DNA of 64,000 nt from Domibacillus indicus (GTDB lineage: Bacteria > Bacillota > Bacilli > Bacillales > Domibacillaceae). Each line of letters starts with the position of its first letter. Position 1 is the stretch's first letter. The stretch covers positions 1-64,000 of the forward strand of contig NZ_JAMBOO010000020.1 of NCBI RefSeq assembly GCF_023715895.1. The letters run 5' to 3'. The notes under the pieces were generated by a model. That model was not told the origin of the DNA and did no database searches. It saw only the letters and a program-made list of their open reading frames with translations. The translations under genes and the position numbers were made by a program. Below are positions 7,970 to 11,269 of this stretch, in pieces.

Positions 7970-8049
7970 CTTTTAGTTTCTCTCTCTTGTATACCAAACA
8001 CTTGTTTGTTATAATTGGTACAACCTAATTTTTGGGAAGGAGGAACGAA

Positions 8050-9129
8050 ATGGAAACCATTTCTTTAAAATTGAAACTAATGAAGCCAACCAATGAAAAA
8101 GAACAGATATACTGCAAAATGACCGAATTAAACACCGGCTTTTCCAATTGGCTTCTTCAGTATGATGAACTTTCAAAAGCGACTTCGAAAGTCTACAAAC
8201 TTTTTTCTACGGACAAATTGCCTTCGGCCATTGTCAACCAAACCATCCGGGAAGTAAAGTCACAAAAGAAAAATCAAAAAGCAAAAGCCTTTCGCCGTTT
8301 TTGGTGTACCTTTAACAACCAAAATTTAAAAGTTGAAAAAGAAAACGGCTTATACAAACTCTCTTTTCCTACATTAGAGAAACGAGTCGGTGTTCCCGTT
8401 GTGGCAGAGCTCTATCAGCAGCATTGGCTTGATAAAATATTGTCCGGCGAAGCAAAATTAGGTGCCGGCAAGCTTTATGAGAAAAAAGGGAAATGGTATA
8501 TGTCTGTGGCGGTTTCTTTTGAACCGAAGGTTGTTTCCTCTTCTTCTAAAGTGATGGGTATAGACGTAGGGCTAAATTATTTAGCAGTTGCTTCAATAGG
8601 GACAAGTTCATTGTTTTTCAAAGGAAACGAGGCTGCTTTTATTCGAAGAAGATTTACTTCAAGGAGAAAAACCTTAGGAAGAAATAAGCTTCTTTCTGTT
8701 ATTAAAGACTCTAAAAATAAAGAGTCCCAATGGATGAAAAATCTGAACCATACAATAAGCCGGCAAATCGTTCATTTTGCTGCAGAGAACGGTGTTCGCT
8801 GCATTCGAATGGAAGACTTGACAGGCATTCGCCGTAAAGCCAAATCAAAAAAAGACGCAGGCAGAAATCTGCACTCCTGGGCACATTATCAGCTTCAGCA
8901 GTTTATTGAATACAAAGCCAAAATGGCAGGGATTCAAGTTGAATATGTGAATCCACATCATACCTCTCAAACATGTAAGTGTGGCCATGTAGACAAAAAG
9001 AATCGAAAAAGACACACGTTTGCGTGTGTCAAATGTCAGTATACACTTCATGCTGACGCGAATGCAGCCATTAATATTTCGAAAGCCATCAGCGGCCTTT
9101 CAAAAAAGAAAAACAAGCAAGCAGCTTAA
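8050..9129 (+). CDS. tnpB: RNA-guided endonuclease TnpB, element 1
   Basis: This TnpB has 359 residues. The three RuvC acidic residues are present in GIDVGLNYLAVAS, IRMEDLTGIR and HADANAAINIS. The zinc ribbon reads TCKCG and FACVKC, so the first pair is spaced C-x-C instead of the usual C-x-x-C. The ATG at 8050 is chosen because AAGGAGG lies inside the earlier TTG frame, 7 bases before it. TnpB proteins use an omega-RNA made from the element's right end to cut DNA next to a target-adjacent motif. They help retain the element after excision. With RuvC intact this copy may be active. No tnpA accompanies it. Confidence 0.93.
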   Translation: METISLKLKLMKPTNEKEQIYCKMTELNTGFSNWLLQYDELSKATSKVYKLFSTDKLPSAIVNQTIREVKSQKKNQKAKAFRRFWCTFNNQNLKVEKENGLYKLSFPTLEKRVGVPVVAELYQQHWLDKILSGEAKLGAGKLYEKKGKWYMSVAVSFEPKVVSSSSKVMGIDVGLNYLAVASIGTSSLFFKGNEAAFIRRRFTSRRKTLGRNKLLSVIKDSKNKESQWMKNLNHTISRQIVHFAAENGVRCIRMEDLTGIRRKAKSKKDAGRNLHSWAHYQLQQFIEYKAKMAGIQVEYVNPHHTSQTCKCGHVDKKNRKRHTFACVKCQYTLHADANAAINISKAISGLSKKKNKQAA

Positions 9130-9334
9130 CCTAGTCCTGTGGTAACAGCAGGACCGCCTGTAAGGTACATGTATGCCGAAGGCATACAAAACGAAGCAGG
9201 ACGGGCTGATGACACCGCCCTTAACTGAAGGCGAGTTCTAAACAGAAATGGACTGGGAACGCGTTCGCACTTCAGAATCCCACCCGTCTCACCGCAAGGT
9301 GAAGGGCTTGCGGCTTTAGCCGTGGGAGTGTCAA
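9130..9334 (+). ncRNA. Putative omega-RNA of element 1 (right end)
   Basis: The 205 bases between the tnpB stop and the element end have several hairpins, including TGTATGCC/GGCATACA (9171-9188) and CGGCTTTAGCCG near the end. This matches the omega-RNA scaffold known for TnpB. The true 5' end is probably inside tnpB. The guide would be the 16-20 bases from 9335 (TGATTTAAGGAAATGC). Confidence 0.6.
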
Positions 9335-9373: not shown

Positions 9374-9402
9374 TTGTTTTACAGATAAGCTTGTGCTACA
9401 AT
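9374..9402 (+). promoter_or_regulatory. Sigma-A promoter of vmlR
   Basis: TTGTTT (9374-9379) and TACAAT (9397-9402) are separated by 17 bases, predicting a start near 9409 and a leader of about 230 bases. Confidence 0.65.
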
Positions 9403-9408
9403 CACTTT

Positions 9409-9610
9409 AATTAACATGCGGAAAGGAATGACGGGTGGACGATGATTAACTAATCTTATTTTTCGAATTTGAAACCGCATATTTCAAATCACAAAAAATA
9501 GGATTAGTCTGCCCATCTTCAATACGTTATACAGCTATTATTGAAAATAGCTTATTTCATCATGCAAAGGTACGGCTAATCCTTCCAACTAACTGGGAGG
9601 ATTTTTTTAT
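9409..9610 (+). promoter_or_regulatory. Ribosome-controlled transcription attenuator of vmlR (predicted)
   Basis: The leader carries a GTG-GAC-GAT-GAT-TAA mini-ORF (9435-9449) behind AAAGGA. Its stop overlaps the 5' arm (9449-9463) of a hairpin whose 3' arm is 9493-9508. That 3' arm contains GGATTAG (9501-9507), which can instead pair with CTAATCC (9576-9582), the start of the terminator at 9578-9610. A ribosome held on the mini-ORF would free GGATTAG and prevent termination. Leaders of this type are known for vmlR and other ABC-F resistance genes; the specific pairings here are read from this sequence. Confidence 0.65.
9578..9610 (+). terminator. Attenuator terminator upstream of vmlR
   Basis: AATCCTTCC pairs with GGGAGGATT (one G-U) around an 8-base loop, followed by seven Ts. 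It lies 30 bases before the vmlR start, so it must be regulated. Confidence 0.8.
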
Positions 9611-9637
9611 TCTCCCTTTAATGAAAGGGACGATGTT

Positions 9638-11269
9638 ATGAAAGAACTATTAAAGTTATCCAATATGGGTTATGAAATAGGGGACTTCAAGGTTTTTGAG
9701 AGAGCCAATGCAAGTGTTCAAAAAAGGGATGTGATCGGTTTAATTGGTAAAAATGGTGCGGGGAAATCCACTTTACTGCAATTAATCCATCGTGACTTAA
9801 CCCCAACACAAGGGCATATAGAGTGGCTGCAGCCAGATCTGAAAGTGGTCATGGTTGAACAAGAAACCGAGTCACATTCGTTTAAAGATAAAACAACTTC
9901 CGAGGCCAGGCTGTTAGAAAAATGGAGTGTGCCAGAACAGGAGTACTCGCATTTAAGCGGCGGGGAAAAATTGAAAGCACGGCTTGCCCAAGGATTTTCA
10001 AAAGATGCCGACCTTTTATTATTAGATGAACCAACAAACCATCTCGACGAACAAAGTATAGAATTTCTCGCCAGACAAATTAAACATTATAAAGGCACCA
10101 TTATTTTGGTTTCGCATGATCGTCATTTTTTAGATGTGATTACCACGAAAATCTGGTCCATTGAAGAAAGAAAGCTTATAGAACACAAAGGAAATTATTC
10201 TAGCTATATGGAGGACCGTAAACAGAAAAGACTCACCCAGCAAGGGGAATATGAAAAGCAGCAAAAAATGGTTAAACGAATCGAAGACCAAATGCATAAT
10301 CTTACTTCCTGGTCCCAAAAAGCCCATGCGCAATCAACAAAGCAAGAAGGCTTTAAAGAACATTACCGCACAAAAGCAAAGCGAATGGACACTCAAGTAA
10401 AATCAAAACAAAAGCGTTTGGAAAAGGAGCTCCAAAGGGCAAAAATTGAACCGGTTGAGCCAGAATATGCGGTGCGTTTTTCCATTAAATCAGATCATAA
10501 GACAGGAAAACGCTTTTTAGAAATCAAAAATGTAACAAAGTCATTTAACGGACGAACACTTTTCAAAAACGTTAATTTTACGATTCAGCATGGCGAAAAA
10601 GTGTCAATCATAGGTCCAAATGGCAGCGGCAAGACCACGTTATTGAACATAATGCTTGGACAGGAACCGGCTGAAGGCAATGTATGGATGTCACCGTCTG
10701 CAAATGTTGGCTATTTGACTCAGGAAGTATTCGATTTACCGCTTGACCAAACTCCGGAGCAGCTTTTTATCCAGGAAACATTCGAGGCGAGAGGAAGAGT
10801 TCAAACCTTAATGAAGCATTTAGGGTTTAACGCTTTTCAATGGACGGAGCCTATTCGGAATATGAGTATGGGTGAGCGTGTGAAGTGTAAGTTAATGAAA
10901 TATATTTTAGAAGAAAAAGATGTGCTTATTTTAGATGAGCCGACCAATCACCTGGACCTGCCTTCACGTGAACAGCTTGAAGATACCCTGGCACAGTATA
11001 ACGGAACGTTAATCGTTGTTTCTCATGATAAGCATTTTGTAGAAAAAACGACCAGCAGCAAACTCGTTATAACGAATTCCACTATACAAAAACAACTGGA
11101 TAAAGTACAGCCCAAAAGAGACAGTCTGGCTGAATTGCGATTAAAGCTTGAAACAGAAAGACAAGAAGTGTTAGGAAAGCTGAGCTTTATGACCCCAAAG
11201 GATGCAGCATACGCAGCGCTTGACCAGAAATTCAATGAACTTACGAAGCAAATAAATAAACTTTCATAA
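9638..11269 (+). CDS. vmlR: VmlR-type ABC-F ribosome protection protein
   Basis: The protein (543 residues) has two ABC ATPase domains and no membrane segment. Domain 1 has Walker A GKNGAGKST, signature LSGGEKLKARLAQ and Walker B LLLLDEPTNHLD. Domain 2 has GPNGSGKTT, MSMGERVKCKLMK and VLILDEPTNHLD. A long charged linker (about residues 190-270, rich in K/Q/E) carries the ribosome-reaching segment. It is very close in length and sequence to Bacillus VmlR, which dislodges virginiamycin M, lincomycin and similar drugs from the ribosomal A/P-site region. The start is the ATG after AAAGGGA. The attenuator upstream suggests drug-inducible expression. Some other ABC-F subfamily is possible but less likely. 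Confidence 0.9.
   Translation: MKELLKLSNMGYEIGDFKVFERANASVQKRDVIGLIGKNGAGKSTLLQLIHRDLTPTQGHIEWLQPDLKVVMVEQETESHSFKDKTTSEARLLEKWSVPEQEYSHLSGGEKLKARLAQGFSKDADLLLLDEPTNHLDEQSIEFLARQIKHYKGTIILVSHDRHFLDVITTKIWSIEERKLIEHKGNYSSYMEDRKQKRLTQQGEYEKQQKMVKRIEDQMHNLTSWSQKAHAQSTKQEGFKEHYRTKAKRMDTQVKSKQKRLEKELQRAKIEPVEPEYAVRFSIKSDHKTGKRFLEIKNVTKSFNGRTLFKNVNFTIQHGEKVSIIGPNGSGKTTLLNIMLGQEPAEGNVWMSPSANVGYLTQEVFDLPLDQTPEQLFIQETFEARGRVQTLMKHLGFNAFQWTEPIRNMSMGERVKCKLMKYILEEKDVLILDEPTNHLDLPSREQLEDTLAQYNGTLIVVSHDKHFVEKTTSSKLVITNSTIQKQLDKVQPKRDSLAELRLKLETERQEVLGKLSFMTPKDAAYAALDQKFNELTKQINKLS

Follow-up and report, generated by a model that had tools for sequence, protein, structure and literature searches.

A probable vmlR attenuator in Domibacillus indicus and leaders of the same type before other genes in Bacilli

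RESULTS

The vmlR gene and its leader

The window analyzed here is a 64,000-nucleotide stretch of Domibacillus indicus DNA. Judged by its sequence, the gene that begins at 9638 encodes a VmlR-type ABC-F protein and is the predicted ortholog of Bacillus subtilis vmlR. The nearest named relatives of the protein are those of Domibacillus sp. PGB-M46 (94% identity) and D. robiginosus (86%), and it is 73% and 70% identical to the proteins of Bacillus atrophaeus and Bacillus spizizenii, respectively. The gene and the elements recognized ahead of it are given below; alignment A1 is a MAFFT alignment of 67 leaders found ahead of a VmlR of at least 50% identity.

9374..9402, + strand: candidate promoter with a weak -35, TTGTTT (9374-9379), a 17-base spacer and an extended -10, TGC-TACAAT (TACAAT 9397-9402)
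9421..9427, + strand: Shine-Dalgarno of the uORF (GAAAGGA), in alignment A1 at the same place as the AGAAGGG mutated by Takada et al. (PMC9226507)
9428..9530, + strand: SL-1 lower stem, 9428-9444/9514-9530, which includes the uORF start codon; from folds
9435..9449, + strand: GTG GAC GAT GAT TAA, the mini-ORF of the sequence-only reading, which overlaps the uORF and is judged not to be the sensor
9442..9453, + strand: putative regulatory uORF ATG ATT AAC TAA (Met-Ile-Asn-stop), with the same letters as the B. subtilis uORF (MIN)
9449..9508, + strand: SL-1 upper part, the anti-antiterminator, 9449-9463/9494-9508, with an apical stem 9467-9474/9482-9489; from folds
9500..9509, + strand: antiterminator 5' arm AGGATTAGTC, common to the SL-1 3' arm
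9533..9552, + strand: SL-2, the predicted pause hairpin; from the fold, with both-side changes in 5 of 7 pairs
9552..9557, + strand: TTATTT, a NusG pause motif (TTNTTT), directly after SL-2 as in B. subtilis (PMC9226507)
9574..9583, + strand: antiterminator 3' arm GGCTAATCCT, overlapping the terminator 5' arm
9578..9608, + strand: SL-3, the intrinsic terminator, stem 9578-9587/9594-9603 and T tract 9602-9608
9613..9630, + strand: SL-4, a hairpin over the vmlR Shine-Dalgarno (AAAGGG, 9624-9629), with probability 0.95 in the free fold
9638..11269, + strand: vmlR, ribosomal-protection ABC-F protein of 543 amino acids (NCBIfam NF000355, 483 bits against a cut-off of 380)

Upstream lies a gene for TnpB, of the RNA-guided endonuclease family, at 8032-9334, which ends about 40 bases before the vmlR -35. 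The TnpB element looks like an insertion, because three other loci, L007 (from the same species), L005 and L104, can be aligned with the window only from 9335 onward. The host genome contains 14 matches to this TnpB, fragments included.

The sequence-only reading had placed a TTGTTT-17-TACAAT promoter ahead of the leader. The letters and the spacing are indeed present, and a TGn directly before the -10 makes it an extended one, but the -35 matches the consensus at only three of six bases and a generic promoter scan did not have 9374-9402 among its calls. Scored by script across the 67 VmlR leaders, a -10 of at least 5/6 occurs in 58 and a TG ahead of it in 52. The leader transcript would start at about 9409-9410.

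The covariance model of Rfam family RF02452 (ncr1575) matches 9410-9608 over its entire length (1-212 of 212) with a score of 156.2 bits, where the gathering score is 60; nothing else in the 64 kb reaches the gathering threshold of an Rfam family. An energy comparison of the folds of 9409-9640, which the sequence-only reading had proposed as a check, gave -62.9 kcal/mol (z = -5.0), with 0 of 200 shuffles equally stable, and has SL-1, the antiterminator and the terminator as mutually exclusive structures.

For comparison we assembled 100 RF02452 leaders, namely 12 of the 15 rows of a family search (24 genomes), 28 new loci from a search of the order, and 60 others listed by that search with at least 65 bits. 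The search of the order covered 397 genomes, 96 of which had a match over the cut-off, and weaker rows were left out; the three family-search rows dropped (L002, L013 and L014) lay on the opposite strand to a stronger match and arose from the palindrome. An ABC-F gene follows 93 of the 100 leaders, although the Rfam type of the family is "Gene; sRNA."

The sensor uORF

Two mini-ORFs overlap in the 5' part of the leader. The frame to which the sequence-only reading had assigned the stalling, GTG GAC GAT GAT TAA, does exist at 9435-9449, but the overlapping ATG ATT AAC TAA had been missed, and by sequence comparison it is the latter (9442-9453) that is predicted to be the sensor. The 12-mer is identical to the toeprinted uORF of B. 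subtilis. In the passages of Takada et al. that bear on this point (PMC9226507), initiation was toeprinted at the AUG of AUG-AUU-AAC-UAA, with the toeprint 16 bases past the A; changing AUG to CUG virtually eliminated expression, as did a change of the Shine-Dalgarno; and of the natural uORF variants, MDN and MDK were at least as good and MRK was weaker. In the window, the uORF stop falls within the SL-1 5' arm (9449-9463). An AUG-x-x-stop uORF is found in 99 of the 100 leaders (MIN 40, MKN 20, MDN 13, others 26; the exception, L011, is a spurious match), a set that is not an unbiased sample for uORF conservation because RF02452 scores sequence.

The alternative is that the ribosome stalls on the GTG-started Val/Met-Asp-Asp-Asp peptide of 9435-9449. 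This frame is open in the window, a start-like triplet stands at the GTG position in 84 of the 99 leaders, with start and stop together in 55, and the distance from GAAAGGA (9421-9427) to the GTG, 7 bases, is the more usual spacing. However, 29 leaders keep the start triplet and lose the stop, yet retain AUG-x-x-stop, and 15 have no start. The stop of the GTG frame occurs where the real uORF has an xxTAAC codon pair (56 leaders) and is gone in the MKN and MDK types; it thus seems to be a by-product of the xxTAAC codons. Modeled folding speaks on both sides. With the ribosome two codons into the GTG frame (9426-9456 masked), the antiterminator reaches 0.69 and the terminator 0.59, about as good as for the AUG, so that the fold alone cannot decide between the frames. 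With the ribosome on the GTG itself (9420-9450 masked), the antiterminator is at 0.88 early and falls to 0.12 with the terminator made, the terminator being at 0.95. The B. subtilis toeprint and the effect of AUG to CUG, cited above, likewise argue against the GTG frame, and we consider stalling there extremely unlikely. The novelty claimed for a Val/Met-Asp-Asp-Asp leader peptide is unsupported, given the published 12-mer at 9442-9453 and the loss of the GTG-frame start, stop or both in 44 of 99 relatives.

Conservation and folding of the switch

Three mutually exclusive pairings had been proposed, and folds and conservation in 67 leaders bear them out. The arm 9449-9463 pairs with 9494-9508. 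GGATTAG (9501-9507) is complementary to CTAATCC (9576-9582), as had been read, and the pairing can be extended to the ten pairs 9500-9509/9574-9583. The intrinsic terminator is present before vmlR, with its T tract at 9602-9608 and the vmlR ATG at 9638.

GGATTAG is invariant in 67/67 VmlR leaders. The eight inner antiterminator pairs (9501-9508/9575-9582) form in all 67 and the two end pairs in 62 each, which gives 98.5% of cells paired for the ten together. What variation there is in the antiterminator is one-sided and keeps the pair: 9508/9575 is U-G in 41 leaders and U-A in 26, and U-G occurs at 9504/9579 in two leaders and at 9505/9578 in two. No both-side change was seen in the antiterminator in the 67 leaders, because its shared arm hardly varies, and the support for this predicted pairing is conservation, not covariation. 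A covariation test of GGATTAG/CTAATCC was uninformative, the shared arm having two partners and never varying in the 67 leaders, so that a lack of covariation in this pairing does not tell against the model.

Elsewhere in the same leaders, cells are paired at 99.4% in the terminator, 90.4% in the SL-1 upper stem and 95.3% in the SL-1 apical stem; in the SL-1 lower stem the figure is 87.1% near the AUG and 64.0% in the outermost part. Aligning vmlR leaders for compensatory changes, a check that the sequence-only reading had named, gave a divided outcome, with nothing in the antiterminator but both-side changes in 16 of the 54 pairs of the repressed structure, versus a mean of 9.9 for shuffled partners and 3 to 13 for partners slid by 1-3 columns. 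The covariation score of the repressed structure is 0.119 versus 0.095 shuffled and 0.030-0.061 slid.

In the folding model, the free RNA has SL-1 at 0.98, the terminator at 0.96 and the antiterminator at 0.00. An assumed ribosome footprint of 9427-9457 (AUG in the P site) gives the antiterminator a probability of 0.98 until the terminator 3' arm has been made and of 0.74 thereafter, with the terminator at 0.52. The model thereby reproduces the proposed switch, in which SL-1 and the terminator form without drug and a stalled ribosome frees GGATTAG. SL-4 remains at 0.77 in the modeled stalled state, and the vmlR Shine-Dalgarno is 0.14 unpaired in the equilibrium fold. With the Shine-Dalgarno still mostly paired, this simple model does not reproduce the relief of translation control.

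These data also bear on a terminator-only leader that would give constant low expression, its other pairings being fortuitous. The uORF, SL-1, antiterminator and terminator are kept in 67 leaders, and the fold z of -5.0 points the same way; the probability that we allow this explanation is negligible.

Proposed mechanism and comparison with known attenuators

The leader is, at a probability of roughly 0.94, the Domibacillus ortholog of the characterized vmlR attenuator, in which a drug-stalled ribosome on AUG-AUU-AAC-UAA permits read-through. What was shown for this leader is the match of the uORF letters, the pairings and how well they are kept, and the switch predicted when the ribosome site is masked. 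In the absence of drug, ribosomes would pass AUG-AUU-AAC-UAA, SL-1 would close and hide the antiterminator arm, and transcription would end at SL-3. A lincosamide, pleuromutilin or streptogramin A would hold the ribosome at the uORF start. The held ribosome would cover the SL-1 5' arm, so that 9500-9509 could pair with 9574-9583, the terminator would not form and vmlR would be transcribed. SL-4 would serve as a second check, on translation. By analogy with B. subtilis, the drug response, the pausing and the translation control are expected in Domibacillus as well.

An RNA of this kind could instead be a trans-acting small RNA, with a 200-base product that matters in itself. The type and name given in Rfam to RF02452 ("Gene; sRNA," "Bacillus sRNA ncr1575") favor this, and a terminated 200-base RNA would register as a small RNA. 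Against it, the gene immediately after the leader encodes a VmlR of at least 50% identity in 67 of the 100 RF02452 leaders and another ABC-F protein in 26, and the conserved parts are the start codon, the stop codon and the mutually exclusive arms. We regard the small-RNA explanation as very unlikely, and the leader RNA may have a side role in trans. A cis-regulatory label would suit RF02452 better.

The vmlR attenuation mechanism is already published for B. subtilis (PMC9226507). The leader described there by Takada et al. (2022) has four stem-loops, a uORF, a NusG motif, an antiterminator and a hairpin over the vmlR Shine-Dalgarno, and was dissected with mutants of the start codon, the Shine-Dalgarno, SL-1, SL-3 and SL-4 as well as by toeprinting (PMC9226507). 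The Domibacillus leader resembles it in the uORF letters, SL-1, SL-2 with TTATTT, SL-3, the antiterminator and SL-4, to the extent that the passages cited describe them (PMC9226507), and differs from it and from RF02452, as far as seen, by sequence drift only. One such difference is the G at 9575 (G-U with 9508), where the RF02452 consensus has A and 26 of the 67 leaders have A-U. The TnpB element upstream of the promoter is another difference from B. subtilis. Ribosome-mediated transcription attenuation, as the sequence-only reading had proposed, is thus borne out, the same mechanism having been shown for B. subtilis vmlR (PMC9226507). The window leader is an ordinary ortholog of a known attenuator; the mechanism had been read correctly, and the sensor peptide and the claim of novelty had not. 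For the window, then, the sensor peptide is corrected and the leader filed under a published mechanism.

Two further systems can be compared from the accounts given of them. The cplR leader of Clostridioides difficile likewise has a three-codon uORF, a drug-stalled ribosome and joint transcription/translation attenuation of an ABC-F gene (PMC10201436). It is likened here by description, and it differs in its uORF, MR[I/M], and in that the terminator stem itself hides the Shine-Dalgarno of the gene (PMC10201436). In the msrD and mef-mel attenuators of streptococci, too, a drug-stalled ribosome on a uORF blocks termination before an ABC-F/efflux gene (PMC9226507). They differ in being macrolide-specific, with arrest in elongation, and are analogous and probably non-homologous according to Takada et al. 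(PMC9226507).

Leaders of the same type before other genes

A covariance model of 99 positions covering the uORF and SL-1, R1, was built from 37 leaders, two of which (L010 and L015) precede an MFS gene; the rest precede ABC-F genes or lack a complete gene. Loci with Vat, Vgb, Lnu, Lmr(B)-like, Tet-like, hydrolase and SDR genes were absent from this training set. R1 matches at E <= 0.001 occur in 181 of the 397 genomes searched from the order and in 62 of the 398 from the class. To the 100 leaders above we added 80 chosen for variety from the matches listed, some of the resulting 180 being nearly identical to each other.

AUG-x-x-stop is present in 176 of the 180. The downstream ORF is an ABC-F gene in 147 (blastp to VmlR, E < 1e-5), and these include Lsa-family members, which are about 25% identical to VmlR (L049, above the NF000167 cut-off). 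Eight of the other 33 have no usable gene, owing to a contig end, an insertion, or a spurious or broken match (L011, L033, L035, L081, L085, L199, L206 and L235). The remaining 25 are followed by genes other than ABC-F. Sixteen are mutually similar MFS genes, by eye Mef/Tap-like (NCBIfam was run on L015 and L197 only, both below cut-offs). L248 is a Tet-like MFS gene, below cut-offs, and L212 is Lmr(B)-like, with 454 bits against a cut-off of 800 and the EmrB subfamily above its own cut-off. L242 and L246 are Vat (NF000311, above cut-off), L251 and L252 are Vgb-like (389 and 396 bits, cut-off 600) and L218 is Lnu(G) (622 bits, cut-off 525). L253 is an alpha/beta hydrolase that scores 393 bits with a polyhydroxyalkanoate depolymerase family (cut-off 300), so that a resistance gene is less likely at this locus. 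For the SDR of L243, no family among those shown was above its cut-off. Neither the L253 hydrolase nor the L243 SDR is a known resistance gene.

RF02452, a model independent of R1, gives the lnu(G) leader 139.6 bits. Below the gathering score of 60 are L197 (MFS, 58 bits), L252 (vgb-like, 53) and both vat leaders (48, E 3e-4), followed by L239 (39), L248 (38) and L243 (37), with E values of 0.02-0.06, and by L251 (34, E 0.24). L212 and L253 have no RF02452 match up to E = 1. Judged on these scores, assignment to the leader type appears firm for lnu(G), fair for the vat leaders, L197 and L252, and weak for the other leaders scored (L251, L239, L248, L243, L212 and L253).

We also asked how well each switch arm fits its own terminator. 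This test took in 150 of the 180 leaders and used random draws without a fixed seed, and the terminators of some leaders (L246 and L253) were misplaced. AGGATTAGTC or a close variant is the switch arm in 66 of 69 VmlR leaders. For the other ABC-F leaders (n = 61), the arm-terminator score is 18.2 with their own terminators, 15.6 with those of their own group and 20.1 with VmlR terminators; for non-ABC-F leaders (n = 20) the corresponding scores are 17.1, 15.8 and 20.9. Inspection by eye suggested a second, shifted register, GGATAGG/CCTATCC, for several MFS, vat and vgb-like leaders; with VmlR terminators scoring higher than own terminators in both groups, this register is unproven.

Plasmid-borne leaders and the sequence after cfr

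With the window leader as blastn query, 175 of 72,556 plasmid records match. Seven records were inspected: the match lies at lnu(G) in L278, at an ABC-F gene in L281, at a place without annotation in L280 (87.9 bits with R1) and at cfr in L276, L277, L279 and L287. In L278, as in L218, lnu(G) is preceded by a complete vmlR-type leader. A query made up of the lnu(G) leader and the first 100 bases of the gene has matches in 119 records; in 51 the match covers 80% of the query or more, and many of the others seem to have a shorter leader. lnu(G) with its leader is also present on plasmids of Enterococcus, Proteus and E. coli; in a collection of E. coli genomes, 9 of 5426 have leader matches, all on plasmids.

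In the cfr records inspected, cfr is followed directly, on the same strand, by the leader match, which in L279 is shortened by IS26. This relic occupies 2478-2741 in L277 and 1146-1363 in L276; in both it gives a full-length RF02452 match of 110.7 bits and has lost the uORF start codon. Behind it stands a coding scrap that tblastn relates to VmlR, in the C-terminal half of the protein (28.5 bits, E 3e-5 against one stretch); a 32-base piece of the scrap has 87-91% identity to VmlR genes. A query of 414 bases, which starts 100 bases before the end of cfr and extends to the relic terminator, finds 138 records, 127 of them over at least 80%, and cfr itself is found in 138. For a leader before cfr itself there are weak matches only, of 14.6 bits (E 0.17) and 11.8 bits (E 0.69).

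Genomes G711 and G537 each have a cfr-like gene directly upstream of a leader and an lsa-like gene, and over 224 bases this leader and the relic share 80% identity. The order cfr-like, leader, lsa-like also occurs in G473 and in G351, where the locus is on a 5.5-Mb contig and therefore chromosomal. In these tandem loci of the four genomes (L184, L185, L220, L044 and L282-L285) an RF02452-type leader stands between the two genes; the lsa-like label of the four downstream genes is by likeness to L049. The cfr-like proteins are 76% identical to Cfr in G711, G473 and G351 and, for the matched part, 81% in G537, and the genes of G537 and G351 contain stops. Fifteen genomes were examined for a cfr-like gene, and the tandem was found in four; ten had no Cfr match at E <= 1e-60, and the match in G216 is at 40%. 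The region upstream of cfr is 73% identical over 267 bases to L184. These likenesses suggest a genome carrying cfr and an ABC-F gene in tandem as the source of mobile cfr. What speaks against a simple origin of this kind is that the relic leader looks lsa-type and the coding scrap VmlR-type.

Taking the plasmid and chromosomal loci together, we lean toward the view that a portable drug-sensing RNA module, the three-codon uORF with SL-1, has been placed by Bacilli before mechanistically unrelated genes of resistance to large-subunit drugs. These would comprise several ABC-F groups, lnu(G), vat, and vgb-like, Lmr(B)-like and Mef/Tap-like MFS genes. Such a module could flag unrecognized inducible genes, for example the L243 SDR, and its decayed copy after mobile cfr, which matches the cfr-like, leader, lsa-like loci, would mark the kind of locus that was the source of cfr. 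Among the open-licence PMC papers listed by our searches, no title or abstract opening states the wider module or the cfr relic. If one RNA module does serve protection, drug-modifying and efflux genes, it would be a search handle for inducible resistance genes missed by protein searches and would explain the wide spread of an Rfam "sRNA" among relatives; through the decayed copy beside cfr, the source of this clinically important mobile gene could be traced by sequence.

Variant leaders

L250 and L274 have leaders of the same kind in which the uORF is AUG, one sense codon and a stop. The leader of L199 looks intact and has downstream of it an IS200-like transposase gene, which may part the leader from its gene; a second SL-1-like arm follows the leader.
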